Of a stretch of 64,000 nt of DNA, positions 1 to 53,329 are shown piece after piece. The stretch is from Cladophialophora immunda (taxonomy: Eukaryota > Ascomycota > Eurotiomycetes > Chaetothyriales > Herpotrichiellaceae): contig NW_015622542.1 in assembly GCF_000835495.1 (NCBI RefSeq), positions 4,486,485-4,550,484 of the forward strand, given 5' to 3'. The translations under genes and the position numbers were made by a program. Each line of letters starts with the position of its first letter. Position 1 is the stretch's first letter. Below the pieces are notes generated by a model, which had not been told where the DNA came from, ran no database searches, and saw only the letters and a program-made list of their open reading frames with translations.

Positions 1-1722
1 CAACTAGAAGCTGGTCGGCTTAAGCTAGGCGACCCTGCACTGATTGTGACCATAGCAGAAGCTCTGCAGAAAGGGTCACGAGGAATGTAAGTATTCACCC
101 CTTCCCTTCGGATGATCGTGCACGACTTAAACACCCGGCTCGTTGCCTCCACCAGTGACATGTCCTAAGAACTGATTTGCTTTTATATGCGTAGGTTCCT
201 TTGGACTCGATTGATGATTGATGAGATTTGCGAACAAACAAATGACAACGCTATCAGGCGTGCCCTTGAGGATCTTCCACTACAGCTTTCAGACATCTTT
301 GACCGGAAGCTTTCCCGTATCGCTCAATCAACTCGCTCTAAACTCTGTACCAAGCTGCTTCAATTCTGTGGTGTGACAAAAAGACCGTTGAATCTGGAAG
401 AGTTTCGGGAACTTCTCGGTATCGAGGTTGGCCAAGTAACTTTGGACAGGGGCAATCTTCCCAACGATATCGCGGGCGTTGTCGCCAGTTGTCACGGATT
501 GGTCTACGCCGATGAGGAGCATTTCACAGTCCATTATGTCCACTACAGTGTGGAACAACACCTTTTTGAATCTCCAAATCCACGATCTGCCGACTTCGAT
601 CGCGCCGCCATTGATACACATGTCGGGGTCTTGTGTATGACATATCTCAACTTCAAAGAACTCAGCGCCCAGGTGGACAAGGTTGGAAAGTCGATTCCCA
701 TTGACCCGGTTTTGATGGGACGGATTGCATTCGACGCAAAGTCAGACCTCACCAGCCGACTTGCACAGCAGATCCTCAGCAGAAACAAAGCGCTGTCATC
801 TATGAGTTCGAAAGATCTAAAACGGGGCATTCAAGGCATCGTCGGCACAAGGGAACCATCTAAGGGGCAACAACATTTCCATCTCCTTCCATATGCTAAA
901 CAAAACTGGATCCATCATTTCCGGCACCTGGAACGATTCGAGAGAAAGGAGGATGAGAAACTTTTCTTCAAGTGTGTCACTGGGGATGTTCGTGAGGCTA
1001 ACCGCCCATGGCAAACGGACCCGGATGAGAGGACAGACTCAAAATTGGTGTCCCTGTGGGAAGATATTGGCCCGCTCTTCTTATGGGCGACGTCCCAGAG
1101 TCATGTGGCGCTAGTATCGACAGCGATCGATCGATACCCGCACGCATTCTGGCGTAAAGTGGAATTCGCGAGCGATGAACGTTCGAAGGCGGCTCTGGAA
1201 ATCATCGCCAACAACCCCCTCCTATTCGACCCCAAGACTTTAGGTTACGCACTCATGGTGGTCATAGATAAGGGTCTCACGGAGCTCATAGAGCCGTACC
1301 TCAATACAAACCTCGATATCCAGTACCTCAAGACAAACCTCGATATTCAGTCCCTCCGGACACCGGGCCATGGAGCATATCCAATAGGTCCCTTGGAACT
1401 CGCAGCTACCAAAGGCTCAATCGAAACAGTCAACCTTCTCCTTGCCCATGACAAAGAATTGGTTTTGGGTCCAATAAGTTGTCCATTAGGCGAAGATGCA
1501 CTCACGACAGCAGCCAGGTGGGGCCACAAGGAGGTGGTCCAGAGGCTTCTACAAGCATATGTCGACCTTGAAACCGTCCCTGATCAGCCCACAGCTCTTT
1601 CTGCAGTCTATGCAGCCAGAAACAATGGATTCACGGAGATCATGGAACTGCTCTTGGGGAAACCGCGCGACACCGAAGTCACTCGGTACATCAGGGACGT
1701 CTGTGTCTCGGACATAACATAA
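1..1722 (+). CDS. NACHT-ankyrin NOD-like receptor, 3' part (5' end outside window)
   Basis: Exons 1-86 and 195-1722 join in frame across an intron (87-194, GTAAGT...TAG) to give QKGSRGM-FLWTRLMIDEIC. This is the strand after the NACHT nucleotide-binding core of fungal STAND receptors. The Walker A part must lie upstream of the window. Next comes the typical alpha-helical/winged-helix segment, ending in the family signature FTVHYVHYSVEQHLF. The C-terminal third holds weak ankyrin-type repeats (PLELAATKGSIETVNLLLAH, ALTTAARWGHKEVVQRLLQA, SAVYAARNNGFTEIMELLLG). Such receptors are thought to sense non-self through the repeats and to signal through an N-terminal effector domain, not visible here. 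A 27-bp duplication at 1297-1350 doubles a nine-residue block. The NACHT-ankyrin call is firm; the ligand and effector are unknown. Confidence 0.8.
1297..1350 (+). repeat. 27-bp in-frame tandem duplication inside the NACHT-ankyrin gene
   Basis: Two 27-bp copies (1297-1323 and 1324-1350) differ at two positions. They encode YLNTNLDIQ followed by YLKTNLDIQ just before the ankyrin block. The copies keep the frame, so the duplication lengthens a linker and does not break the gene. Confidence 0.85.
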
Positions 1723-9678: not shown

Positions 9679-12600
9679 ATGTCTCAGACACAGTTCATGG
9701 TTATTGTCGAAGAAGCACCGTCGAGTGAAGAAGGAAAATCACACAACGTTCGGGTTGGCTGCAAAGTGTACTCCAAAAGCGGAGAGCAGCTCTCCCAGGG
9801 ATCCATCATTAGAAATCTTCCGATCTCACCCCTGCTCTTGAGCCAGGAAATATCATGGGCCATTCAGGGATACGTCAAAGACCCATTCCAATCGCATCGA
9901 GCCGAGTTGGCGTTCAAGAATTTTAAGGAGCACGGGAAGTTCTTGACCAAGAAGTTGAACCTCGTCGGTTGCTTGGAAGAGACTTGCGGCCCGGTACTAA
10001 ATGTCACCGAAGTTGACATCCAGCTCAACATCGTCGATAGCACTACTGACACAAACGGAAATCAAGTGTCCAACTCTCTGCAAGGAATCCCGTGGGAGAT
10101 GTTGGAGTCGCCGCAGATCGCCTCAGCTGGTCCCAGGATCCACGTCCGCAGAGTCTTGGACGGGAGTTCAACCGGCAAAACCCACACTATTGAGAAACTC
10201 AACGTCCTTCTCGTCACATCACGCTCCTCCGAAAGAGCAGACATTCCGCACCGTGTTGTGTCGCTCCCCTTATTCTCGATTCTGCACCAACTCGATAATC
10301 GTTTCGTCGACGTGCGGCTCCTCCGTCCAGGTACACTTGATGCATTTTCTCATGCTCTGAAAGTCGGCAAATATGACATGGTGCACTTTGACTTGCACGG
10401 GAAGGTGGCTGACTTTGGGCACGGCCAACGGTGTGTGTGGATATCCCTTTCCCTTTCTTTCTCTTCAATGATGGCTGATCAAGTCACTAATTCTTCCCAA
10501 ATAACAGCCCATATCTCTTTTTCGATGGGCAGGCTGTCGAAGGAGCGGTCGTGGCGACTCTTCTCAAGAGCCGAGAAGTCCGTTTGGTTACCCTCAACGC
10601 CTGTCAAAGTGCCTTCCTCCAGGGAGATTGTCAGACCAATCTTGCAGCCATGCTGATGGGCGATTCTGTCGAGGCCGTTGTCGCCATGTCGCACGAGATA
10701 ACGCCAGCTGCAGTAGGCATTTTTCTGAGATCATTTTACCAAAGCTTGCTTGTCGATGGCCAAGACATGGTAATCGCCGTCACCAAGGCCAGACGTGCCC
10801 TCGAAGTTTCCAAACAGCGCGACTCGGCTTTTGGTTTCCCGGTCTGTCTGGACGACTACACGGTACCACTGCTCTACCAGGCATCGGCTGGGGAGATTCG
10901 AGTGAGGGTACCCAAGAAAGAACCTGCAACAAATCGATCGAACACTGTCTCTTCACTCCTTTCCGATCAGTCGGTTTTCGGAAGGGATCAGCAGATTTTG
11001 TTGCTGGAGAGCTACCTCATCAAGTCAAAGGTCGCTGCACTCACGGCCTTTGAAGGGGAGGGCAGGGCAACCCTGCTGTCTTGTCTAAAGCCGTGGTGGA
11101 TTATCACAAACTTCGTCCAAGGGGTCCTCCACATCGACTTTCGAACCACCCCGTCATGCTGGGCCGGCGGCGGTTCGGAACCACCAACCATCGAGACCAT
11201 CTGTCAAGGTCTTGTGGAATTCCGACCTGGCCTGGCCGAGAAACCCACGCCAGCGGAGCTGACGATTGATTTCCTCCGAAATAACCGTTATCTCGTGTTG
11301 CTGGAAAACACCGACTACCTCAAACCTCGCCCTACCGCCAAATCCAAGCTTGGAAAGGCACTAAACGGCTTCACGTCCGCTTTCTTTGACCCCGATTTTG
11401 CAAGCCTCCTCCTCATCACGTCGACATCGACCGAAGCCTGGGCGAGCTGCAGGGTCCGAGAAGCAAGAAGAAAACCCCGGTACCATTCGCTCACCACCGA
11501 CTACTTCGACCAGATGAAGGTTGCCACTGGGATACTGGGATGGGGTGGACCTGAAATCCATGGCAGCAGTGGATTCCGCTACCTCCATCACATTATCCAG
11601 CTCTGCTCATATCACCCGCTCGCAATGAGAACCCTCCTGCCGCGCCTGTTCGCCACAGGCTCGTCCGCAAGGGATCTCTTCTGGAAGCTTCAGATATCCC
11701 CAATGCACCTCGATTGGGACTCTGGGGATCTTTCCAAGCTGTGTGTGCGCTTTGCAGGTGCTTGTGAGGAGCTCGGGGCCTTTCTCAGCATATTCATTCC
11801 CATCCACAGCGCCTGTACCACGGATTATATCCGCCTACATATCCACCGCAACCTTGACACTATTCCGTGGGCTTCCCGACCGGAACTGGAGTCCGAGCAG
11901 CGAGTCAGCTGCGCGATGGAGTATCTGCTCATGACACTTCGCGACTGTGGCATCGCTCGCTTTAGCGACTGGGCCTACGCCGAGAAGATCCAGCTCCATC
12001 CCCTTTTCTGCATCTACTTGCGGGACCGAGTGTTTTCATCCTCACAGTGTCAGCAATCTTTCAGGAGCCTCGCCATGTACCACCACAACTGCGCACGCCG
12101 CTGGGCTCAGGAGGATATGGTCAGCCCTGTTCAGGCGCCGGACTGTTACGCTCACCAATATCTCGCCCACTTCGGTGCGCTGCACTTCATCTTGAAGCAC
12201 CCCGAGCTGTCCGAGGCGGACCGGCGAACGTTTGATCTGCCGTGGATCATGGCCACTGTCTACTGTGGCAAGACGCGCGAGGCGCTGTGGGAAGAAGAGG
12301 AGGTAGTGAGCGACCTCGCTCACCAGGCCTTGCCGTTCTTTGTGCCCGGATTGAAGTGGGTGGAAAACAAAGGGTGCCATATCCTGAATGCCGCGCTTCT
12401 CCACAGCAGGAGCCGAATCATGCCCCTTGAGGACTGCCTCCTCGTGCTCCAGCTGCTGCAGTGGGTAACACTGCACTATTTCAGACTGAGCACGCCAACC
12501 GCTAGGCATGCCAACTCCTATATCAGTCTGATCCTCGAAAATAAAAGCCTGCTGGCAGGGGAAGCAGACGAGGGATCTGCGCTGCTTCGCTTCATCAAGG

Positions 12601-13953
12601 CTGTCTCCGGGCTGGCGGAAGCTGAGATGGGTGGATCCAGGTTGAACTGGGCGCAAGCGGACTACGGTGCTGTGTACGAAGCACTCCAGCACACCGACGA
12701 ACTCGGAATCGACCCGGTCCAGCTTCTCTTCCTACAAACCTGGGATCAGGACTTCCGGTTCAGGTTGAATTGGTATCAGCTTGACATCCAGACGGCGAAG
12801 GAGAACATCTCCGTAAGTTGAACCGACCACACTGATTCTTTCACCCTGCCCTTTTTGTTCTCAAACATGCGGGACGCTAACTGCTGCTCAAGAATTGGCA
12901 ACACACCGAATATTTCGTAAAATCTGCCTTGGATGAAAGGCTAGTGGCATTAAACGACGACTCAGCATACATTAAAGCGATCCAACATCTACGAGACAGG
13001 AGACCCGACCTGTATCAAGACGAGAGATCAGCCCTGCTACGTACCATGCGCGATTCAAGCGAGAGGAGTGAAGTAGATCGACTCCTTCACACACTCTATT
13101 GCCTCCTTAGTGTGAGCAACAATCCCCCTATTTCTCCCCCACCACGACCTCGACCTCGCTGACCTATGCCGGTCTTGCTTGCTACCAGATGAGTGAAGAG
13201 GAAAAGGACTGGAAAGCGTGCCTTGATTTCCTCGACCGCATAGAGACTACCGAGCTGGACATCAGGAACAAGCCGGGATACGTCGAAGGAGATCGGGAGA
13301 AACACTCTTCCGAGGCGTGGCGATGCAGGATCCGTGCACGGTGCTACCGCAACCTCGGCGATGACAACAGATCCGAAAAGTACAAATGCCAGTCCATGGC
13401 CGCCGCAGATCATGCCAACCGACTTAGGACCGAGCATGACAGATTCCTAGAGTCCCAGCAGGCCAACCGCCAGAGACTTCTATTTGACTGGTCCATCAAC
13501 TCCACACAAGACCGTCCGAGGGAAATAAACGACTTCTTCACCCGCCCAGACGTCAGAGATGTTCCTATACCGCAAGAGGACCTCGAAGAGGACCGGGAGT
13601 ATGACCGAGGGCTGGACCATCTCCTTCGGGCAGTCGAGCCGCTCGGCGGCTCAGGGCCGATGAGAAGGATACCGGTAAACCCACAGCCATTGAATTCGTC
13701 GTACCTTCAGCGACCGTTTCTCATAGCTGCTCGATGGCTGACGGTGAGTCGCTACCTTTGTGTTGTGACAGGGAGAGAGGAGAGTCCAACGCATCGGCTG
13801 CCAAGCTTCGATCGCATTGGCACAGGAATGGATTTGTTGCTGGACCTGGAGTCAATGCAGGTGAGGGTGTTGGTCCAAGACCTAAAGTCCAACGGCTTCG
13901 ATCCCAAGAACTTGACCACGACGCAGTTTTTGAAGATGATGGGACTGGACTAA
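9679..13953 (+). CDS. CHAT-protease / degenerate STAND-like NTPase / helical-repeat protein
   Basis: Four exons (9679-10430, 10508-12812, 12893-13111, 13189-13953) join in phase to 1,346 residues from ATG MSQTQF. The N-terminal third is a caspase-related CHAT domain: VHFDLHGK supplies the His (about residue 240) and LNACQSAF the Cys (about 283). The His-Gly and NAC.S surroundings are typical of HetF-associated proteases. An NTPase-like module follows near residues 415-560 (VFGRDQQ, AFEGEGRATLL, YLVLLENTDYL, LLLITSTSTEAW). Its P-loop has Arg where Lys is expected, so ATP binding may be lost or altered. The rest is helical, perhaps TPR-like, with charged ends. I infer a receptor whose CHAT domain cleaves a partner; the divergent gasdermin-like gene is the obvious candidate substrate. 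Confidence 0.75.
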
Positions 13954-14351: not shown

Positions 14352-16360
14352 ATGGATCACTCGGAGCTCTTTGACCTTGGTTCGTTCGACATCTGGCGCT
14401 CCTTGCGCAGGAAGCTCGCTGAGCTGTCTCACCAGGAGTCACAGCCTAACGTCGACGCTCGCGTGAGCCACCCCTTCAACTCCAAACGCAAAAAGGTGTA
14501 AGAGAATTCGTGGTGGAGTGTGAACTGATCGGATCATGTCTAAACAAGGCTCTCGATATCCAGTCTCCAGATTCCCCTAAAGCTCGCACGGCGGAACTCA
14601 TGGCGATCCTCAATCGAAGCTTCGAGGCCATCAGCGACGAGCTCGACCTCTATGCCCTGGAGTCGCTGCCCCAAGAGAGAGCCGAAATCTTTCTGACCTA
14701 CGCGGCCTGCGCAGCGTTCAAGGACAAGCTCCACAAGTATCCCCTGCACATGCTCGCCGCATTTGGCGATACGTCCGACCTCAAGGCCATGCTCGACACA
14801 GGGGCCCACGACATCAACCAGCGGGACGAAGACGAACAAACTCCGCTCAAGAACGCTGTCGATGCGCACCACTACGGTCAAGTCCAGCTCCTGCTTCGGC
14901 AGCCCAACATTGAGGTGGACCCCCTCGACTCGCAACGCTGGACCCCGTTGCACGACGCCTGTCGACTCGGTTTCCTTGACATTGTCCGCCTGCTCTGCGA
15001 CACCGGTCACGCCAACATCGAAGCAGCCAACGGCGAGGGCTTCACGCCACTGCAGATTGCCGCGTTCGGTGGCCACGCCCGGATCCTCTCGTTCCTCCTC
15101 GATCGCGGCGCCGACCCCACCGCGACCGGCCACGACGAGCTCACCGCGCTCCATCGCGCCGTCACCAACAATCACGCCAAGGCTGTCGAGGTCCTCGTGC
15201 GCGCAAAGGTGGATGTCAACCCGGCGAGTCCGCACGGGGCCACGCCGCTCCTAAGAGCCGTCGAGTCGGCCGATCCACGTATCGTGCGCATGCTCCTCGA
15301 TGCCGGGGCGGACGCAAACCCGAGGAACTGCGATGGTATCACTGTCCTCGAGATGGCCTTGCTCCGAGGGGATGAGCCTATTCTCCGCATGCTGCTACGT
15401 CGCGGCGCCACGGGATGCGACGCGAGCGTGATTTGTAACGCTTTAACTAAGAATCCAAGAATCGCGCTTGTCTTGCTCAACCATACGACGACCTCTCTCC
15501 CCGCGACGATGGGAACATCAGATAGGGGTGAGGATGCACGTGAGAGCGGACCACCGCCCTTCCTCCTCGCCGCGCTCGGAGCAGGATCGGACGCTGCTCC
15601 CCGAGATGCAACGCTGGCGCTTGCCCTCGCGACCAGGCTCTTACAGCTCGGGGCAGACTGCAACGCCCACCATGTTACCGGCGCACCAAAACCCCTCCAC
15701 TTAGCGGCACTGCGCGGATGGACTGAGGTGACGCGGCTGCTGCTCGGGCAGCCGAGTATCGCCGTGGACGCACGCGGAGGAACTAACGGCAGCACACCAT
15801 TGTGGGCAGCGGCGGCGGCGGGGAACACGGATATCATCAAGGCGCTGACCGAGGCTGGGGCCGATGTCAACGCGACCGCCGACGACGGGACGACACCGCT
15901 GATGATAGCAACATCGGAGGGAAAGCGCGCGGCTGTGAGGATGCTGGTGGACGTGGGTGCTAGCTGTGGTGCGAGAGATCAACGTGGACGGACCGCCCTC
16001 GTCATCGCTAGTCAAAATGGCCACAGCAATCTCGCGGCCTTCCTCGCGGAGAGAATGTCACGACGGGGCACCGCGTCCGACAGGCGACCCGCGGAGCCGA
16101 ATCGCGGACGAGCCGAGCACCGCACAACGCCTGTCTCGGCCGCCTGGCTGACCTTGGAAGCCCTTGCAGGAGACGAGATGCCTGATCCTACAGGCGATCG
16201 GGAGCCTGGGTGGTTGAGGGAGCGTGTAGTCAGAGAACGGGAGCGAGTGGTCACGGGTGAGCAGCCTCGGCAGAGTCCCCTCACGCACGTTTACGCTGAA
16301 CGGGAATTACCACCCCTACTTTTTCCTACGCCTCCAGCGGCCCAGGAGACGCGGGGTTAA
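14352..16360 (+). CDS. ankyrin-repeat protein
   Basis: Exon 1 (14352-14462, ATG MDHSELFDLG) joins exon 2 (14549-16360) over an intron with GTGAGC donor, CTAAAC branch-like site and AAG acceptor, giving 640 residues. This splice keeps phase 0, which a shorter intron ending near 14507 does not. From about residue 110 there are ten or more ankyrin units, several near consensus (TPLHDACRLGFLDIVRLL, TPLQIAAFGGHARILSFLLD, TPLLRAVESADPRIVRMLLD, TPLWAAAAAGNTDIIKALTE). The first 100 residues are helical without a known domain, and the C-terminus is Arg/Glu-rich. No catalytic domain or membrane segment is seen. Ankyrin proteins bind partners. Position beside the CHAT/gasdermin-like pair suggests a sensor or adaptor, but that is inference. 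Confidence 0.8.
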
Positions 16361-21026: not shown

Positions 21027-24000
21027 ATGCCGAAGAAATTGACCCACAGCGCCTATGAGGTGGGGTGGATCTGCCCGATGCTCTTAGAGCAGATCCCGGC
21101 GTTGCAGATGTTGGACGAGGAACATGAACGGCTGGCTCAGCCTGCGGGAGATCACAATGTATATACTTTGGGAAGCATCCATGGCCACAACGTTGTCATT
21201 GCGGGACTTCCCGACAACGACAACCCCTCTGCTGCCGTCGTGCTCACCCAGATGAAGATGACGTTCCCCAAACTCAAGTTTGGCCTTTTGGTTGGCATCG
21301 GGGGAGGTGTCCCCGTGAAAACTGACACCGGAATGATCAGGCTGGGGGACGTGGTGGTCAGCAAACCAGATGGTCCTAATTCCGGCGTGGTGCAATACGA
21401 CCGCGGAAAGGCCAAAGCTGGCGACTTTGAGCGTACCGGCGCTCTGGACCGGCCGCCGCAAGCGCTCCTCAATGCTGCACAGGATCTGGACTCGAAGCGC
21501 GCGAGTCTGCGGACAGATCCTGTCGCGGAGAACCTGAAACGGATCGATACCACCATCCCAGGGCTTCGCAAGTACAGATACCCTGGTGCGGCGCAAGACC
21601 TGCTTTTCGAAGCTGAGTATGAGCACGAAAGGAAAGGAAAGACTTGCGACGAGTGCGGATGCCACAAATCTCGGCTGATTCCATTTCCTGCTGACAACGA
21701 GGCGGGTGGTGGAAATGAAGCATTTGTTGTGGTGCACCGAGGGACAATTGCCTCCGGAGGGTTGGTGATGAGAAACGCCATTCTGAGAGATGAGCTCGCA
21801 AGGCAGTCCAATGCGTTGTGCTTCGAAACTGAGGCAGCCGGAGCCCTGAAGGGCTTTCCGGCCATGGTCATCCGAGGCATCTCAGACTACTCTGACTCCC
21901 ACAAGAACGATGTGTGGCATGGATACGCCGCGGCGGTGGCAGCTGCCTATGCACGGCAGCTGTTTTTCCACATGCCGATCGAGGCCATTAGTGGGTGAGT
22001 TGATCTTCTTAGGTAGCTGAATGATAGCATGGCGGCTGATTCATTGCAAGAGATCCACTAGATTTCGAGATGACGCGCCTGTGGAACACGCCGGACCCGG
22101 TCCCTCATTTTGTCGGTCGAGACATTCTCCTGACGCAGATTGCTTCGTATTTTGACAACGCTGGTGAACTCGGCACTCGTAAGCTTCCTTTAGTGCTGGC
22201 CGGCCTGGGTGGTGTGGGCAAGTCTCAGGCCGCGCTGGCATATGCACATCGCTACGCCGAACGATACATGCTCTGTTTCCAGATCGATGCTACAACCGAA
22301 CAGACCATCCTCGAAAGCTTGGCCGAAATTGCGGACATGTTCGATACAGAAGCCAGCGTTAGACAGCCCGGCAGGAATTCTCCCGCGAACAGGAAACTAG
22401 TGCCATACGTCAAGCTCCAGCTGGAACAGTGCAAGTCGAGGTGGCTGTTGATTTTCGACAATTACGACAATCCTGCGGCGGTGAGGTTGGCCCCCTTTCT
22501 CCCGAGATCACTCTTGGGAGACATCATTGTCACCTCCCGGAGGTCAGATGCCTGTGCACTTGGGCACTCGATTCCTGTCGAACCGATGGAAGATGACGAG
22601 GCGGAGGAGCTTCTGCTCAGGCTCGCGGGATACACCGTGGCTAACACGACGGCCACCGACCTAGTGTGCGCCCAAGTCGTTTCAGAATACGTGGGCAAGC
22701 TTCCCCTTGGGTTGGAGCTTGCCGCGGCCTACGCCAAACAAATCGGAGCTGGCGGCTTAAGGATGTATGCAAGCCTTGTCGAACGACAAGATGAGACAGT
22801 GCTGTATGACTCCCTGAGAGCTGGCCCAGCAGACCGTTTCCTCTCCGACTACCAACTCGGCGTTTTCGACACCTGGAGGCGTTCGTTCCGGATGATATCG
22901 GAGAGAAATCCCAATGCAGCAAAATTTCTACGATTGTGCGCCTTCTTTGACCGCTCTCAGCTGAATGCACAGCTATTCCGACACGCTGTCCGCAGAAAAT
23001 CGTTCTGGAATTCAATTGGCAGATTGGAAAGTCTCAAGCCAACTGATGCTGGAGTACCCGCTTGGCTAGTCTCGGCATGCACGAGTGGTGGTTCTTGGGA
23101 CGAAATGAAGTTCGTCAGCCTCCTGATAGAACTGAAAAACTTTTCTTTCCTCAAATGGAACACCTCTTCAAGAAGGCCCTGGAATCGGGCTGCCATGGAA
23201 GCTTCTTCTGCCGAGGCAGAAGCCCCACGAGCAGCGGATGAGGATGATCATAAAGACGAGGACGACCCTTACGACCTGTGGATTCATCCATTAGTGCATG
23301 AGTGGGCAAAGGAAAGCATGGAGGCGGAGACAAAGTCAAGCGCTGCCCTGGAAGCAGTGTGGGTTTTCATACACAGCATTGAGGATGACGCACGAGAAGC
23401 TGACGACGACCTCCTTGGGTTCAACCTCCTGCGCTCTTTTAAAGGGCCAAGACAGCGACTGCTTCTGGATTCTCATCCTAATCATCAGGATTTGAGGAAT
23501 GCGATCATGCTTGATGAGGTTCAGAGATTGGGTGGGGCTCTGGCCGGGCCGAAGGCTATGAGGAACATTTTCAGAGCTGGCCAATTCCAAACTGGTGGTG
23601 GCGGGATGGTAGACTCGTTTCTGGATCTCATGGCCATCCTCCAGGGATTCCGGACGTTTCTTGATCGGTGTCACTGTCTGGAGATGGACCCGAACGGGTC
23701 CTACTGGGTACTGCCACACTCTGCTTTTGAAGACACATATGCGATTTTAATTGCGTTCCAGGAGCGGAAGCTGCGCGCCTCCGAATGCAATATTGCGGGC
23801 GAAATATTCACCACGGCCCAACGTTTCTTGAGACAGGAGTCTGAATATGCTCACGCCTTGATATTAAATGCGACGGTGGTCAACGACGCCTCGTTCTGGG
23901 AAAAATTGGTTGAGCACGCGCCGGTGGTTAACAAGCTGATCCAAAAGCTTGAGGCTCCTCGCCTGGACAAAGAATTTTCAATCCTCACCGTTGCTGCCTG

Positions 24001-25302
24001 CGCGCAACTTTCAATTTCTTACGCTTATGCCGTGGGTGTGTCCCATCACAATAACACGAACCCCCTGGCGGACCCGATGAATTGGTTGGATGATGATCGC
24101 CATCGAGCAATCCGAGTCATCTCGTCCGTCGGCCAGACCGCGCTACGCAACTTGGAGATGATCAAATCATATCAAGACGCGTTCGAAGGCAAGATCCGCA
24201 TTTCCGAACGGACAATCTCCAAAAGTGTTCAGTGGCCACTCCAGATGAGCTATGCCTTCGCCTGCCTGCGGGAAGGACGCCCCAATGAGGCTGGACCGAT
24301 CTTCGAGGCAGGAATTTCGAACACTCAGTCGCTCCATGGCCCCCGGGCGGCCTTGGCTTTCGCCACCGAAGTTGGGCTGGCGATGGACGTACAGTTGAAA
24401 ATAGGCGCCGAGCAATTGGCTTTTCGTTCACACTACGTCGAAGCTGTTGGCACGGACATTTCTCATGACGACCGAAATCACTGGCTCGACTTTTTCGACT
24501 TGGCCGCAGAGATAGATCCGTCACTCGTCGAAAAGTTTTCAAGGGACAACAGAGCTCCAAGAGATAAGGTCAACAAATGGTCCAGTATTGCACTGCAAGG
24601 GAGAAAGCGTCTCGGGGAAGGACCTGCGGCAGCAGATCACACCGAGAAAAGCTCCTTTGATGAAGACCGTCAACCGCAGCCGTCCACCTGGGGCTCTCGG
24701 GGCATCGAACTAGAACCGCGTATAGGTCGCCTCAACTGGCCAACGCGATCGCTGGACGATGACATTGCCAAGTCGTCGGCAATGCTGAAGCAAAAGTATA
24801 CGCAGTTCAAATCCAGCGTGCCAACGTACGCGACCGCCACTTTAGCCACCGAACTCGTCAGCGACCTGGATAATAAAACTTTACCACCACGAGCATCAGC
24901 ATCTACTTCCGAGCCGAACACGGCAGCAATCGAGGAGCGAAGGGCCGAGTTCACTTCCACCCTTTATCCCACGAGCAACAGAACGCAGGTCGACCCGCGC
25001 AGTAACCAGGTCTTTGTGGAGACACTGACTGGAAAGACCATCGTCCTTCCCTTTGACCCGTTTGAGACGGTCAGTGCATTCAAAGACAGAATAACCGACA
25101 GAGAAGGCATCCCGGCGGATATGCAGCGCATCATTTTTGCCGGCAAGCAACTTGAGGACGGCCGAACATTGTCAGATTACAATGTGTACGTGGCACAAGA
25201 TCCTCGCTCCCTTCGCTGCTTGGTTTTGCTAACGATGAAATGTTTGTGTGTAGCCAACGAAACAACACCCTTCACCTCGTGCTGAGGTTGAGGGGAGGTT
25301 AA
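21027..25302 (+). CDS. PNP-UDP phosphorylase-like / NB-ARC receptor with C-terminal ubiquitin domain
   Basis: Three exons (21027-21994, 22051-25185, 25254-25302) join in phase to 1,383 residues. Residues 1-322 are a PNP_UDP_1 nucleoside-phosphorylase-like domain ([47 protein letters not shown]), a frequent N-terminal effector or sensor in fungal NLRs. NB-ARC follows: P-loop GLGGVGKS near 374, Walker [10 protein letters not shown] near 455, [10 protein letters not shown] near 540. A helical, perhaps TPR-like, region runs to about 1,200. The last 76 residues are ubiquitin: 52 of 76 positions identical by eye to the canonical sequence. Hydrophobic-patch Leu8, Ile44 and Val70 and Lys11, 27 and 48 are kept; Lys6, 29, 33 and 63 are replaced. 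Spliced exon 3 ends in LRLRGG directly before TAA. The ubiquitin fusion is seen; its role is unknown. Confidence 0.85.
25186..25253 (+). other. 68-bp intron inside the ubiquitin domain
   Basis: Donor GTACGT after the codons for DYN, branch-like GCTAAC, acceptor TGTAG. Removal restores the ubiquitin C-terminal strand and GlyGly. Retention would instead give 33 unrelated residues and a stop at 25285, so the splice decides whether the protein has a conjugation-type tail. Confidence 0.8.
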
Positions 25303-46261: not shown

Positions 46262-48652
46262 TGCGAAATTAGAATCCGCTGTAAGCAGAAATGCTCTTTG
46301 CAGAATTGCTGTACACTGTCTAGGTATTCTGTATATAAATGACCAGTTCCCAATCTTGGCTCTGACATTGCCGCTGCCGGAGCCTAGTAGCCGACTTCTA
46401 GATAATATGCCTATAATTGCTCGGCGTTTCCTACTTAGCGAGCTAGTAGTCGGCGACTTGATGTCCGCTGGCTGGACTGGTCTTTTACGGCCTAGCTTTG
46501 ACCTAACTTCCCAGACCGGCCAATCATCTCTGCGAGTTGTGGTGGGGCTATGGGAGAACAGCCTTGGAGGAAATCGCTGTCTCCCGGTCGATGAGCAAAT
46601 CTACATGCTTGTACAGCGGCACTGAGGCGACCAACGGCAACGTTACAGACAAATTCAAAGGTCGTCAAGTAAGCACAGAATGAATAGTCTGACCCAGAAA
46701 ACAGGCGAGGGATTTGTGCAGTAATGTTCGCATTGGCAAAGCTGGTAATTTTTGGTTAAGACGCCGATCTGAAACAAAAGCCATTCCCTTTATAAGTGAT
46801 GGACTGTGTCCCAACCAGAAAGTACAAGCGTGGTATCACAAGCGCATTGTTTCCCCTGATTTAACGCAAAAGATTTGTCGAGAACATGGTGAGACAAAAG
46901 CCCATCTGCCCAGTCTTCGATAGTCCAGAGTATTCTTCTGCAGATTCCACAGTTTTCCAGTGGGCATTCCCCGTCACGACGATGCTAATGGATGCATAAT
47001 ATAGCCTTGCGTTGCCAATGGCTTGTCCTGGGGATCTGTTTGCCGGATATTGCGGACAAGACGCTCACCTGATTTAGTCAGGGGTGTTTCCTCGTCGGAA
47101 TCTCGACGCCCTTCCTTCGTATCCCACGTAACTTGGCGCTGCTTTTGCTCAGGCTGGCTCTTGCCCCGGCTCAACTTCGGCTCAGGGCCGGCTCGGCCAG
47201 CTCACCCTGGTTACCATCTTTCGAAGTTCTTTGAGAACTCTTTTGAGGTCTCGCCTGGGTCGCGACATGACATCGGTCGTGGTGCCTTCCTCATTGTTGA
47301 CCGTGCAGAGCTCAATAGGAGGAACCAAATTGTCAAAGATGGCGCTCTTCCTCCTTCTATTAAATTCAACGCTATTAAAACTGTGAATTACTTGCACAGT
47401 AATTCTGCCTTGTCTTCTGCCTCGTTCATGATTGGAAAGGCAATGACTACCTAACGTCAATTGGCAGCTGGAGCAGGGCGGATGGTGGCAGTTGATTGAT
47501 TGAAAAGCTTGGTGAGTGCCTCCTGACGATGTAAGGCTCGAAGACTAGCCTTCCCGTCTCAATCCATTTACCTGTGTTATACTTCTCAGGGGGTCTTACG
47601 CACGCACACTATCTTCCACAGGCCTATAATCGGGCATTCGCGGATCTGCCAATCTCATCCCTAATGGACGGGAAGTCAGATGGCGCTCCATCATCAGCTA
47701 CGGTGCACAATACCAGTGGCAGTTGGATGGCGTACAACCCGCCGGAATTCGCATAGGTGGCGTTTTCAGTTTGTGGTCGCAATACGACCGCGAAGAGAAA
47801 ACGCCTGTTGGGCTGCTCTGCCTTTTCCCTGGTATTGTGCAAACCTATGGGCGTTGTCCGGATTGCTTGGAAAAGGAAACAGCTGTGCATCCCCTTTGAG
47901 TCAGACGTATGGACCACGGAATATCAACTCTTCCCCATCTTCCAGCTCCATCTAACCTCTGCAGAAGGCAGTAACGTTCGCAGACGGGCCGAGAATCCCC
48001 ACAAGCTCATTTCAATTTCCGTGATCACAGCCTGGAATGAGGGGTTCTGGGTTATGCACAAGGGTAAACTCTGCCCTACAGCCTGTCTCTGTCACTTGTG
48101 AATCGCCGGCTCTACCCCACAAACAGCCACCAGCTCACGCCTGTAGGGTATGTGCTTCAGGATCCTCAACCTCCACCACACGCGGCTGTTCACCTTTCAT
48201 TTCCAGATCATGATGGGCTTCTTGCTCCTGCATCTCATGAAGTCTTTGCAACGGCTCAGGAGAGATGGGCTGTGCTCCGAAATCCTCCACATTGCTAAAC
48301 GCAAGACTCGCCGTTGAGCCTCGATCCGTAGCCAAAACTTCCTCGTCCCTTCCCGATGTAGTAATACTAAATGATATATTAATATATTACATATTTCTTG
48401 GTACCGCTATCACGTGTGGTTCTGGATGTATGCCTCTTATTGGTTCGTCCAACCTCCCCGCTCGTTGGGCTTTTCTGACCTATTATTTGTCAGCCAGGTT
48501 CGTAAAATGTAGGCATCAGTGACGTGGCAGAAATAGAGGCAGGACATTCCATAGCCTGATATAGCCTGAGGATAAACTCCTTCCGTATCTATTAAAGCTC
48601 AACTTTTATCATCATCAATATCTCGCAGGACTAAAGCCAGACCGCGTATAAG
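46262..48652. other. 2.4-kb stretch without an intact gene
   Basis: The largest gene-poor stretch of the window. It includes a frame open from 47574 to 48101 except for one TAG, listed separately, and AT-rich DNA near 48,370-48,395. I recognise no transposon or RNA gene. Confidence 0.4.
47574..48101 (+). pseudogene. possible broken gene: one frame interrupted by a single TAG
   Basis: The frame is open for 60 codons, stops at TAG 47754-47756, and is open again for 114 codons. The translation is not low-complexity (HNTSGSWMAYNPPEFA, stop, VAFSVCGRNTTAKRKRLLGC; later RIAWKRKQLCIPFESDVW). I do not recognise a family. It may be a recently decayed gene, a misread intron, or chance. Confidence 0.3.
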
Positions 48653-51600
48653 ATGTCCGGGACGCCACAGGACCAGGCTGAGTGTGTTCTTGATACTTGC
48701 CACGTTGCAAAGCCGACGATGTTGTCGGGCATCGCTAACTTCGCATATTATGACAGTGTCGATGCCGTCCTCGCGACATTTGGTGATACGTGCGAGGCAT
48801 TTATCCAAGAGCTCGACGACAAAGAAAGAGCTGAAATCCTTAGGTTCACCTCTGCTGAAGACATGCTTCAGTCGATCAATCAGCTTTCTGAGACTCATTT
48901 CCTTCACCGATCTCGGTTTACGGCTTGCGCAAAACGGATACGCCGGTTCAGCGACAAGTTTGGTCCATACTTCGAGGTAATAAACATCTTCGTTCAGACC
49001 AATCCAGAATACTCTGGGCTGGTATGGGGGATACTACGACTGGTATTCCAACTCGGTACTCATTATGTGACCTTCTTGGAAAAGATCAGCCTTACTTTCG
49101 AACAGATATCTGTTCAACTGCCAATATACGAGCATGGTGTCAAATCACTGAAATCTCTGAAAGACGAGCATGATAAGCGACTGGATCGCCGACTTTTGGT
49201 ATCCCTTTCTTGGATATACAGCGATGTCATGGAATACTGCTTTGAAGCTTACAGGTTATTGTCGAGGGGCAAGTCTTTTCGGGAGAAGGCCAGATTGATC
49301 TGGAAACTCTCGTGGCAACCGTTTGATGATCGTTTCGGCCACGTACTCAAACGATTGCGATGGCACAAGGACCTTTTCAACCAAGAAGTGCGCGTTGCTC
49401 AGATGGAATTAGGTGCAACCCAACTTCGGCAAATGAGGAATCAGCGCGACCAGTTGGATCGACTGTATGCGTCTTTCGAAAAAGAAATGATTGAGGCGCA
49501 GAGAATTAGGGCCACCCAGGAACGGAAATGGGAAAGTGAACAGGAATCTTTGAAATGTGAGTAATCTGGTGCAAGATATTCTGCTCGTGTACCTTTATGA
49601 TAACGTTCCTGTACAGCGCAGGTTATCCAGAGGCTGAAAGACTGGATAAATGCCCCAAATTGGGAAGAATCTCACGAGTCAGCTTCTTCCCGAAGGCATG
49701 CTGGAAGCACAACGTGGTTCTTTTCGGAGCCAGTGCTCAGTAGCTGGCGGTCTGGAATAAACGAGTCGTGGGAATTGAACCAGAAGGCCGAGTGCAACAT
49801 TCTGCTTGTTCAAGGTACGCTGAGATCGAGTCATTCGAGCCCCAAGGTTCACTGTTAGTAGGCAAGCCAGGGTTTGGCAAGACACACTTGTGCTCCAGTT
49901 TCATTGATCGTCTCCGTTCTGGGAGCTTCGAGCACCCAGAAAATCCTCTTACAGACAGCACTATTTCCGGAATTTTCTACTACTATTTCGACGCTTTGAA
50001 GCCATGGACACAGGGTGCTTCGGGAGCTTTTCGAGCCATTCTCACCCAGGCGTTGCACAACTACCGCAATGACAATGATGCGCTCGATGCTGCATGCTTG
50101 ATGATGTACCATGGAGTTTCTGGTCAAAGAATAGCGAGCGAAGATGAGATTGTGACTCTGCTCCATTGGTACCTTCGACGATACCGGAATGTGGTGCTGG
50201 CATTCGATGGCCTCGACGAAGCCGATGATCTCAAACACTTTTTCAAGTGCCTTCAACTTTGTTTGTCGGAGTTTGACTTGACAAACCTGGACACAAGATT
50301 GTCCTTCGACTCATTTACAACACCTAATGTCACTTCGACGACGAATGACCCCGGGCCCGCTGTCATACTTTTCAGCCGCCCCAGTATTGTCGTTCCGAAG
50401 TCTTTGCTAGAACGGACTCGCCTCCTGTCGCTTCGTAAAGACCAGAATCAGATTGACATAGCAGCTTTCATCTACTCCACTCTCGAGCAGCTCGTGGCCA
50501 ATGGCATGATAGACGAAGACCAACAAACAGAGGAGCTTGCAGAGAAGGCTGCATCTCATGCAGGTGGCATGTTCCTGTGGGCGAGGTTACTCGATAGCTA
50601 TCTCAACACAGATGGCCTCACCGTACAGGAAAGACTGGATGCGCTAGGTGATCTTGTGTACCTTGAAGGCTTAGACAATTTGTACAACGCGATCTTCTGG
50701 CGATTGCAGACAAATTTGCCTTCGCAGGTGAGAACCAGGGTCAGAAAGGCGTTTCAATGGATTTACGGTGCTCGAAGACCTCTATTCGTTGACGAACTGA
50801 GCGAAGCAGTCAATTTACCGGCAGATAGCACCGCTCACATCGCTCAGATTCCGAAATTTCGAGAGGCCATACCACGGATTTCCGGTAGCTTGCTGGAAGT
50901 TACTGCAGATGATACTGTGAGCTTCATACATAGCTCTCTCTCTGAGTACTTGCAACACAGTCTGCAGAGGGATTCAACCACTGAGGAGAATCACGTTCGC
51001 TTGATTCAGCCTCTTCAGACGGCAACTCACTTGGCAGCTTCTTGCGTGTCATACCTAGCTAAATACATTCCCCCAGAGCCTCTGAGCGGCTCCACGAACA
51101 CCACTGCAGACCTTAAGATTCAGACACAGCGGTTTCCGTTACTTCCATATATACTGCAAAACTGGACCTTTCACGTTATTTCAGCCATGAAATATGGCAG
51201 TTCCAAGGGGAACGCCGCTGTTGACCTGGAGCCGGAGCAAGTCTTAGGGCTCACGCAGCTCCTGAATGAAATCCACAGCTTCATCCTCGACAAGAGGGCT
51301 GTTATGACCTGGATAGAAGCTTCTTGGTTGTTTGGAGCGCCGCCTCAGCTTGACGGCATGGCAGTTTTCTCCAGGAAGAATGTCTCTGTTCGCCGCTGTT
51401 CGACCGGAGCCGATTCACAGAGTCTCGGAAACTTCTTTCAGGACATCTCTAACTTTTCACGAGACCTCAAACGCCTCAACACCGACTGGGGCCACGTGCT
51501 ACGCAAAACATCAAATGAGATCTGGGAGCCCAGCATCCGATCTCTTTGTCGGTCACAATTCTGGTTGGGAACAGAAGAGGCCACACTAGATTCTCTGGAA

Positions 51601-53329
51601 GCAAGTGCTAAACATCAGGGTCACAGAATCTCGCTCGGATCCAGAGTTTCTTCGAACGGTCTTGAGGTTGGATTAGTCAGTCTCATAGCACCAAGGTGAG
51701 TAGTTTGAACCAGCTCATCAGTATCGACCCGTGCGATTAACTCTACACCTTCTCCTTCAGCTTTTCGTGGGAAGCTGGATGTGAAGACTGCCTGAAGTTT
51801 CACCTTGGTCAAATCGAGCTCGGCAAGGCAAAAGGAAATCTCCCGCCGTGGAAGCTCTGCTTCGAGGTTTGGGATTTAACCTCGAAGGTCACGAAGTTCA
51901 AGGTCTATTCCACCATCAGTTGTCATGACTCGGAGTCCGAATTTCATCACTGTCTCAGCGGTCACTACCTTCCTACAACCAATCTGAAAGTTACCTTTGG
52001 TATTTCAGGTGATCTGCGCAAGGTTCAAGTCATGTCCGACCTCATCATCATCAGGAGCCTCGACCCGTCGTTCCAAGACGAAAATGGATGGGGATGCACT
52101 TACGACTGCGCCGTTCTCGGAAGGCCACGGATATTGGACAATCCGACCAGTGTTCACTCAATGTCGATATGGGGTATCGTTTTCTCGGACGATGGGAGAT
52201 ACTTACTCTTCGCTCCGAAGTATTCGGCTCTCCGCGTGTTCGCATTCTCTAATCCTGAAGAGAAGCCACAGCCTGTAGCGAAGACAAGCCCAACTGGACT
52301 GCTCTTTGCTTGTAGTGTCTTGGGCTATATAGCATGCTTCCATCCATTCCTGCCGGCGCTTGCACTTGCACGTGAGAACGAAACGGTAATTTGGAACTTT
52401 ACTTCAGGTATCTATTGCATCCCCATGTCTTAGGTGCAGGGTTCAAATCAGACAAAGCTAACTGAATGCGTCTAGTATCGGGTCAAGGTTATGTCAAGGT
52501 CTCATCGACTGTGCTTGTAAAGTTGAGATTTTCGAACTGTGGAAATTATATCATGGGCTACGACCATTACCAGCGATCTCAGCGGCTAGATTTTGTGAAT
52601 TGTCATGATGCAATCAACACGCTGTTTCCAAGCCGTAGGCTTGAAACGGACGCAGCAGAGGCCTCGCCCGCACAAGAGATTTCTCTTCCGGGCCAGAGAC
52701 ACATTCCATTCAATGAAGCCAGGAACGCCCGTCATCATGCAGCCAGCATTCAGCCCATGGATACCATAACTTTCAGCTCTGGTGGACTGACAGACGAAGC
52801 GGCCGTGTCTGTATTGCGGCAATTCCTCTATGAGGGAGCGTTACAGCTCACAACTCTTCGAAAGGATGGCACGGCGACAATAGAAACAATCGCCCGGATC
52901 CCCAAAAATCTCGACTTCTCCAACGCAGTTATGTTACGTACACGGTCTTCGAGCTCTAGAGAGACTATTTCATCCGATAATGATGAGAAAGTTCGTCTGG
53001 TACTGAACATACGTCAAAGACAGCACTATACTCTTTCTCTTGCCGATCACGAGCAGCCGATGCCAATTATCTTTGAGAGGAGGAAGCATACGATTCCTGC
53101 GTCCAATGTAATGATACAGGGCACCATACAATCTTCTCTGGACTCAACCATTCCAGGAGCTCTAAAATCAAGAGGCATTATTCCTTTACGAATGAAACAG
53201 ATGAATTTCGACAACGAGGGAGTATCAGGAAGAGCACCAGTGGTTTGCGAAGGACAAGCTGGCAATGCGAGAAGATCTGATCGATTGCATATCAAGAAGC
53301 AGATCAACAACACGAAACCGTCCGTTTAG
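48653..53329 (+). CDS. NACHT receptor with DUF7708-like N-domain and propeller-like C-terminus
   Basis: Five exons (48653-49556, 49617-49814, 49859-51695, 51761-52407, 52476-53329) join in phase to 1,479 residues from ATG MSGTPQDQ. Residues 60-300 are the helical domain that precedes NACHT in many fungal STAND proteins (FSDKFGPYFEVINIFVQTNP, LVWGILRLVFQLG). NACHT: P-loop VGKPGFGKTHL near 368, Walker B VVLAFDGLDEADD near 482, and the winged-helix end TVSFIHSSLSEYL. The C-terminal third has WD-like strands (IWGIVFSDDGRYLLFAPK, ACFHPFLPALALARENETVI, VKLRFSNCGNYIMGYD), i.e. a degenerate beta-propeller sensor. Intron 2 is only 44 bp and sits directly before the P-loop. It appears intact and is likely a non-self sensor; the N-domain's action is unknown. 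Confidence 0.85.

Follow-up and report, generated by a model that had tools for sequence, protein, structure and literature searches.

A C-terminal ubiquitin in a small, scattered family of fungal NOD-like receptors

Introduction

Can an immune receptor carry a ubiquitin mark in its own gene? The question is raised by a locus in a stretch of 64,000 nucleotides of the Cladophialophora immunda genome (contig NW_015622542.1, positions 4,486,485 to 4,550,484; hereafter the window), where a gene at 21027-25302 encodes a predicted NOD-like receptor (NLR) whose last domain is a ubiquitin. Ubiquitination commonly sets the levels and signalling of immune receptors in animals and plants, and in this family of fungal receptors the mark seems to be encoded by the gene itself. 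A preliminary description of the locus proposed that the ubiquitin could act as a built-in signal, conjugate the receptor to targets through its own tail, or be cut by a deubiquitinase. It knew of no well-described fungal NLR combining PNP, NB-ARC and ubiquitin domains; our literature searches, which had subscription papers and supplements outside their scope, found neither that layout nor any other published fungal NLR with a C-terminal ubiquitin.

The ubiquitin is encoded by the receptor gene

Scripted testing of splice sites yielded a single open gene model, with exons 21027-21994, 22051-25185 and 25254-25302 and a product of 1383 amino acids. Five acceptors were tried for intron 1, and the one at 22051 was the only one to give a single stop, at the end of the frame. 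CLAIMM_08718 (P0001), the protein on deposit for C. immunda, is of equal length and differs from the window product only at residues 373 and 629. According to a passage in its publication, the C. immunda annotation combined Trinity and Cufflinks transcripts, merged by PASA, with Augustus predictions via EvidenceModeler (PMC5595782). The domain order is almost certainly a PNP-like domain, NB-ARC, a helical C-terminal domain (CTD), a variable linker and a ubiquitin that ends in LRLRGG at the stop codon. The parts of the gene are as follows:

21027..21994, plus strand: exon 1, encoding residues 1-322 plus part of codon 323, with the PNP_UDP-like N-terminal domain
21995..22050, plus strand: intron 1, 56 nt, GT..AG; spliced product identical to CLAIMM_08718 but for the two residues
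22051..25185, plus strand: exon 2, with a short connector after the PNP domain, NB-ARC, helical CTD, variable linker and the first 60 2/3 ubiquitin residues
22070..23287, plus strand: NB-ARC nucleotide-binding region, about residues 330-735, with an HPLVHEW motif near its end
23288..24577, plus strand: CTD, about residues 736-1165, all-helical and without a Pfam family; signature QFQTGGGG at 23582-23605
24578..25003, plus strand: variable linker, about residues 1166-1307; pre-ubiquitin motif IExRRxxFxxxLYP at 24929-24970, kept in most relatives
25004..25299, plus strand: ubiquitin domain, residues 1308-1383, split by intron 2 and ending in LRLRGG; Lys48 codon at 25145-25147
25186..25253, plus strand: intron 2, 68 nt, GT..AG, phase 2, in ubiquitin codon 61
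25254..25302, plus strand: exon 3, with the remainder of codon 61, the final 15 ubiquitin residues and the stop codon

Intron 2 holds a CTAAC motif, similar to a branch site, that starts 25 nt before the 3' end of the intron. Read-through of the exon-2 open reading frame (ORF) beyond 25185, where the frame stays open to 25285, was ruled out, as the resulting tail is not ubiquitin and the domain is broken.

By its sequence the domain itself is a ubiquitin, a 76-residue beta-grasp domain in which all three residues of the Leu8-Ile44-Val70 patch are kept. Pfam reports PF00240 at residues 1310-1381 (E 4.7e-23), and the first 61 ubiquitin residues, as modelled, match ubiquitin chains in Foldseek at E 0.009. 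The count of 52/76 identities to human ubiquitin given in the preliminary description was reproduced, as were the position of LRLRGG right before the stop and the residue states it listed (Leu8, Ile44, Val70 and Lys11/27/48 kept; Lys6, 29, 33 and 63 changed, Lys63 to Arg); identity to the ubiquitin of the same genome is 51/76. Its term "near-canonical" was, however, too generous for a domain that has clearly diverged.

The last exon contains only about 15 codons and the gene model is a prediction from sequence, so that one could suspect an artefact of the gene model or the assembly, or a reading frame that happens to run on into a stray pseudogene of ubiquitin. We consider this extremely improbable, since full-length relatives occur in two other fungal lineages along with 12 further ubiquitin-bearing ORFs, and since the intron position is by implication common, 10 of those 12 ORFs ending exactly there. 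The ubiquitin fusion is no artefact; the deposited product of the same length and the fused relatives both uphold the earlier assignment of exon 25,254-25,302 to the receptor gene.

A small family with a shared ubiquitin

A search with the whole protein (best 120 of 3064 matches listed) found PF00240 in the domain lists of two of those 120 matches, P0001 and P0002, the list for P0045 being incomplete; the other listed matches were mostly TPR or NACHT/ankyrin proteins that covered 11-57% of the query. When residues 640-1383 were used (best 120 of 328 matches listed), polyubiquitin dominated. The family was delimited with residues 640-1300, which leave out the ubiquitin. This CTD search scored the 7992 candidates sharing most words, so that misses are possible, and returned 17 clusters at E <= 0.001, of which even the weakest match had an E-value of 2.5e-86. 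All 17 carry the CTD signature in the form QF[QR]TG[GA]GG, and a Pfam ubiquitin is annotated in 15. Besides C. immunda (Chaetothyriales), members include Elaphomyces granulatus (Eurotiales, P0002) and Pseudogymnoascus sp. VKM F-4520 (Thelebolales, Leotiomycetes; P0206). Database entries P0174, P0195 and P0234 are named L40e or ubiquitin, a name that suits their tails only.

P0211 and P0239, in which no ubiquitin is annotated, are predicted ORFs that end just upstream of the point where the ubiquitin would start, and both keep the pre-ubiquitin motif. In a tree of residues 560-1150 they are sisters of the ubiquitin-bearing P0179 and P0195. Their lack of ubiquitin may reflect truncation at an intron, a frameshift or a true loss. 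P0240, with a ubiquitin disrupted from about residue 52 onward, lies on a long branch (1.65-1.82). The preliminary description had named homologues lacking ubiquitin as an outcome that would speak against the fusion, and the relatives favour it instead. These results show that the ubiquitin-tailed NLR is a real inherited design, found in a small and widely scattered family.

In a prokaryote collection, 13 loci were recovered, each aligning solely with the query's end (within residues 724-812 of 812, a span made up of the ubiquitin and at most 28 residues before it). Three ubiquitin-like sequences from this search, in Flavobacterium and Pedobacter genomes (L031, L032 and L034), share 58-60% identity with the ubiquitin portion of P0174. 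The phage search gave no match, and among viral contigs five stretches fitted a pattern, none of them a relative.

Ten of the 12 further ubiquitin-bearing ORFs end exactly at ubiquitin residue 61 (DYNV or DYNM), the site of the phase-2 intron in the window gene, as would be expected if a bacterial-style gene caller had stopped at a shared intron; the ORF of P0234 ends two residues further on and that of P0240 is broken earlier. Phe17 (V17F) is found in 14/15 fused ubiquitins, Leu26 (V26L) likewise in 14/15, and both together in 13/15. Among 769 control repeats, which are the distinct near-full polyubiquitin repeats from 105 non-family proteins of the residues 640-1383 search, none has both, one has Phe17 and 31 have Leu26. 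For 13/15 fused ubiquitins the nearest sequence is the ubiquitin of another NLR; in the other direction, that of P0002 is nearest to a polyubiquitin repeat and that of P0209 ties at two decimals. A single origin followed by loss, or by sparse sampling, is the simplest reading of these sequences, although it is not proven.

Within the C. immunda genome, a search that scored the best candidates found one locus with the receptor's CTD, the other matches being ubiquitin genes. An origin of the receptor's ubiquitin, intron included, by capture from the ubiquitin precursor genes of this genome, which we take to be Ub-L40e and Ub-S27a, is not supported, as the intron positions differ: by eye, after Lys63 in Ub-L40e and in codon 32 in Ub-S27a, against codon 61 in the receptor. 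The genome also holds a polyubiquitin-like copy with an in-frame TAG (G000:C5:1364984-1365352, minus strand), which looks like a pseudogene of polyubiquitin in decay.

The ubiquitin is the best-conserved part of the receptor

Mean identity to P0001, counted over those relatives with more than 50% coverage of the part in question and with boundaries that differ somewhat from the domain limits, is 66% for the ubiquitin (1308-1368, n=14), 50% for the CTD (641-1150, n=16), 48% for NB-ARC (330-640, n=14) and 27% for the linker (1151-1305, n=15). By this comparison the ubiquitin is the best-conserved segment, and its mean identity to canonical ubiquitin is 0.71 over positions 2-61.

Leu8, Gln41, Arg42, Gly47, Lys48, Lys27 and several other residues are unchanged in 15/15 fused ubiquitins, with Ile or Leu at position 44 in 14/15, while other lysines have been kept less often (Lys11 in 12/15, Lys33 in 9/15, Lys6 in 7/15 and Lys29 in 6/15). 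As a control we took 516 distinct polyubiquitin repeats that are 55-85% identical to canonical ubiquitin, a divergence similar to that of the fused ubiquitins. There Leu8 is kept in 340, Arg42 in 313 and Lys48 in 304 repeats, and the other lysines more often: Lys6 in 386, Lys11 in 393, Lys29 in 405, Lys33 in 415 and Lys27 in 488. To judge from these alignments, what is protected in the fused ubiquitin is the Ile44/Lys48 face, while Lys6, Lys29 and Lys33 drift; for Leu8, Arg42 and Lys48 against these three lysines, the polyubiquitin repeats show the opposite pattern.

The ubiquitin goes with the NB-ARC and CTD half

The P-loop GLGGVGKS, reported as intact in the preliminary description, is present at 22202-22225 (residue 374). 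Its NB-ARC assignment holds by relatives and by fold, although Pfam did not report NB-ARC on the window protein itself. With an NB-ARC region and an intact P-loop, the receptor is by its domains one of the fungal NLRs of the NB-ARC class of STAND proteins. An AlphaFold2 model of the CTD, of modest confidence (predicted local distance difference test, pLDDT, 68.9), is helical, and Foldseek gives no match to it at E <= 0.001. No repeat family (WD, ANK, TPR or HEAT) exceeds the Pfam cut-off in the window protein, and three relatives have weak TPR_14 matches; no direct DNA repeat of at least 20 bases lies in the stretch from exon 2 through to the stop. The linker contains stretches with pLDDT under 50.

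A PNP_UDP domain, an effector of the known fungal repertoire, occupies the N terminus, as judged by homology. The window protein itself stays under the Pfam cut-off for PNP_UDP_1 (E 6e-4, 19.7 bits against 25.1), so that the earlier PNP-UDP claim stands through relatives: P0002, 50% identical in this part, lies above the cut-off with 30.9 bits, and among the matches listed many PNP-NACHT proteins (e.g. P0045, P0047, P0065) are 59-69% identical over 21-24% of the query. The motifs ETEAAG and RGISDYSD lie at residues 267 and 283. Reviews, in the passages concerned, tie the PNP domains of fungal NLRs to immune ATP nucleosidases (PMC10197012, PMC12881547).

P0206 of Pseudogymnoascus has an alpha/beta-hydrolase-like stretch in place of PNP, 14% identical to the window protein over that part; DUF676 (E 5.4e-4, 20.0 bits; threshold 20.3) falls just short and Abhydrolase_6 (E 0.0015, 19.7 bits; threshold 26.3) also stays under. 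Thus the N-terminal domain is of the PNP type in P0001 and P0002 and hydrolase-like in P0206, while NB-ARC, CTD and ubiquitin are retained together; exchange of N-terminal domains is known among fungal NLRs, as a passage of PMC4986451 describes. Since the N-terminal domain differs in the Pseudogymnoascus member, the ubiquitin goes with the NOD-CTD half, and this constant company of NB-ARC and CTD makes a regulatory or sensory role more likely for it than a share in the weapon.

The C-terminal tail

Three complete tails are available. All of them end exactly at residue 76 and keep Arg72, Arg74 and Gly75, Arg72 being the residue by which E1 distinguishes ubiquitin from NEDD8. The free GlyGly noted earlier is real in the window protein, but it is not a feature of the family, as the Elaphomyces and Pseudogymnoascus tails end in GA (Gly76 to Ala, 2/3). 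That two of these three tails have lost Gly76 favours a putative role as acceptor or docking site for readers over one as donor. The GA tail does not close the donor question, a 1994 study of G76A and E1 having reportedly found that such ubiquitin is still activated, if more slowly.

Deubiquitinases cut after ubiquitin Gly76. Because nothing follows this residue in the receptor, ordinary deubiquitinases have no bond to cut there, and the proposed regulation through deubiquitinase cleavage does not fit.

Possible roles of the ubiquitin

We tentatively favour, as quite possibly correct, the reading that the fused ubiquitin serves the receptor's regulatory half as a permanent proximal ubiquitin, bound by readers and extendable at Lys48. 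The face formed by Leu8, Ile44 and Val70 would dock ubiquitin readers, and the invariant Lys48 would accept a ubiquitin chain; the ubiquitin system could then set the level or the oligomeric state of the receptor, for example through extension by a ligase of the ubiquitin fusion degradation (UFD) type and proteasomal removal when idle. Such control would need no prior ubiquitination and would leave deubiquitinases no bond after Gly76. Sensing via the CTD would lead NB-ARC to oligomerise and would release the enzyme at the N terminus, which is exchangeable and of the PNP type in the window protein but hydrolase-like in that of Pseudogymnoascus. Of the three roles in the preliminary description, the built-in signal has the best support. 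If ubiquitin does control turnover or assembly, the effect of a single ubiquitin on an NLR could be tested without the confounding steps of first ligating or removing it.

Several observations weigh against this reading or the patterns behind it. P0189 has Ser at position 44; Lys27, though invariant, and Lys11 are no outliers when compared with the polyubiquitin repeats; and His68 and Val70 are readable in three sequences only. The fused sequences are related, so that their counts are not independent, and the control repeats, fetched by word matches, are not a random sample. Arg72, Arg74, Gly75 and the exact stop at 76, kept in all complete tails, would be needless for a pure docking module. 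Finally, the deposited P0002 has no segment that aligns to the ETEAAG motif of the window PNP domain, upstream of its RGICDYAD; the Elaphomyces enzyme may be broken or decayed, or its gene model faulty.

The ubiquitin might instead be an integrated bait, on which ubiquitin-modifying or ubiquitin-binding enzymes of invaders or rival strains act and so trigger the NLR. Its place at the sensing end, constant while the N-terminal part differs, its preserved ubiquitin-like surface and the other STAND-like or ankyrin ORFs of the gene region would suit a bait, but the ubiquitin is conserved and not diversified, a literature search on decoys into which a ubiquitin domain is integrated gave no paper, and we know of no candidate ubiquitin-attacking enzyme for these fungi, which also counts against it. 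We regard the bait as unlikely; if true, it would point to ubiquitin-attacking enzymes in conflicts between fungi and invaders. Somewhat doubtful as well, and rather unlikely in our estimate, is a plain ubiquitin-like interaction module outside ubiquitin signalling, for instance one packed on the CTD that holds the receptor shut. The family-specific pair V17F and V26L and the modest identity to canonical ubiquitin are what such a module might show; however, the signalling face is what has stayed, and the linker is long and poorly conserved.

It is improbable that the receptor is itself a modifier of the ubiquitin type, its tail charged by E1/E2 and the whole receptor joined to a target. LRLRGG stands directly before the stop codon in the window protein and the complete tails keep the features described above, which would allow conjugation through the receptor's own tail for the window copy, but both of the other complete relatives have Ala in place of Gly76, with n=3 only. 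To our knowledge there is no target or ligase for such a modifier, a further point against it. Conjugates with a GA tail would resist deubiquitinases, a linkage with G76A being more resistant to isopeptidases according to the part of PMC5298413 concerned. Very improbable is the extended form, in which an activated receptor with its nucleoside-cleaving or hydrolase enzyme would be planted covalently on a target via the E1/E2-charged ubiquitin and, with a GA tail, withstand removal. A donor role, if true, would make the receptor a new class of ubiquitin-like modifier.

Relation to known proteins

The permanent proximal ubiquitin that we favour has a counterpart in the UFD pathway, in which chains are built on a fixed ubiquitin as their acceptor; the fixed ubiquitin of the receptor can be likened to that of UFD substrates. 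The ubiquitin precursors Ub-L40e and Ub-S27a are also ubiquitin fusions, but theirs is N-terminal and cut off, whereas the receptor's comes last with nothing after it. The receptor was therefore rejected as a precursor fusion: it has no N-terminal ubiquitin and no scissile bond after Gly76, the stop following directly.

Fungal NB-ARC/NACHT NLRs with PNP_UDP or sesB-like N-termini (Dyrka 2014, PMC4986451; Sordariales survey 2025, PMC12258605) share the effector-NOD-C-terminal layout, the NB-ARC fold and an N-terminal domain of known repertoire that is exchangeable between relatives. The window protein differs from them in its C terminus, a family-specific helical domain plus ubiquitin, with no WD, ANK, TPR or HEAT family above the cut-off. 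The word "ubiquitin" is absent from the main text of PMC4986451 and occurs once, in a reference, in that of PMC12258605; it is also absent from the main texts of PMC10197012 and PMC12881547. PMC9815663 has it twice in its main text, in a heading and for an N-terminal Crinkler domain. Crinkler-type fungal NLRs, as that passage presents them, also have a ubiquitin-fold domain, but as an N-terminal effector, whereas the window protein has a true ubiquitin at its extreme C terminus. The single mention in PMC3689799 concerns ubiquitin-based degradation domains among incompatibility-induced genes, and the 11 in PMC7159879 fall, in the passages concerned, on prokaryotic ubiquitin-like systems and references. 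Metazoan TRADD-N immune proteins with ubiquitin and ubiquitin-ligase domains, described in part of PMC8195603, are likewise immunity-related multidomain proteins with a ubiquitin domain, but they belong to Metazoa, are discussed there with marine invertebrates and have another architecture.

Genomic surroundings

An ORF scan of the window gave 36 large ORFs, two of which are the receptor's own exons. Twenty were scanned against families; none of these matched a ubiquitin-pathway family, and 8/20 matched nothing at E 0.01. The neighbours of interest are the following:

169-1719, plus strand: ankyrin-repeat ORF, perhaps the tail of another NLR
10491-12818, plus strand: CHAT ORF (PF12770, E 3.3e-8), a caspase-like candidate about 8 kb upstream of the receptor
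14450-16357, plus strand: ankyrin-repeat ORF, possibly one gene with the CHAT ORF
48635-51696, plus strand: DUF7708 ORF and, after it, a NACHT/NPHP3_N-like ORF; another STAND gene of the window besides the receptor

A PNP_UDP-type match in a 349-codon open frame lies 434 bases beyond the window end (G000:C2:4550918-4551169) and may belong to a further NLR-like gene just outside the window.

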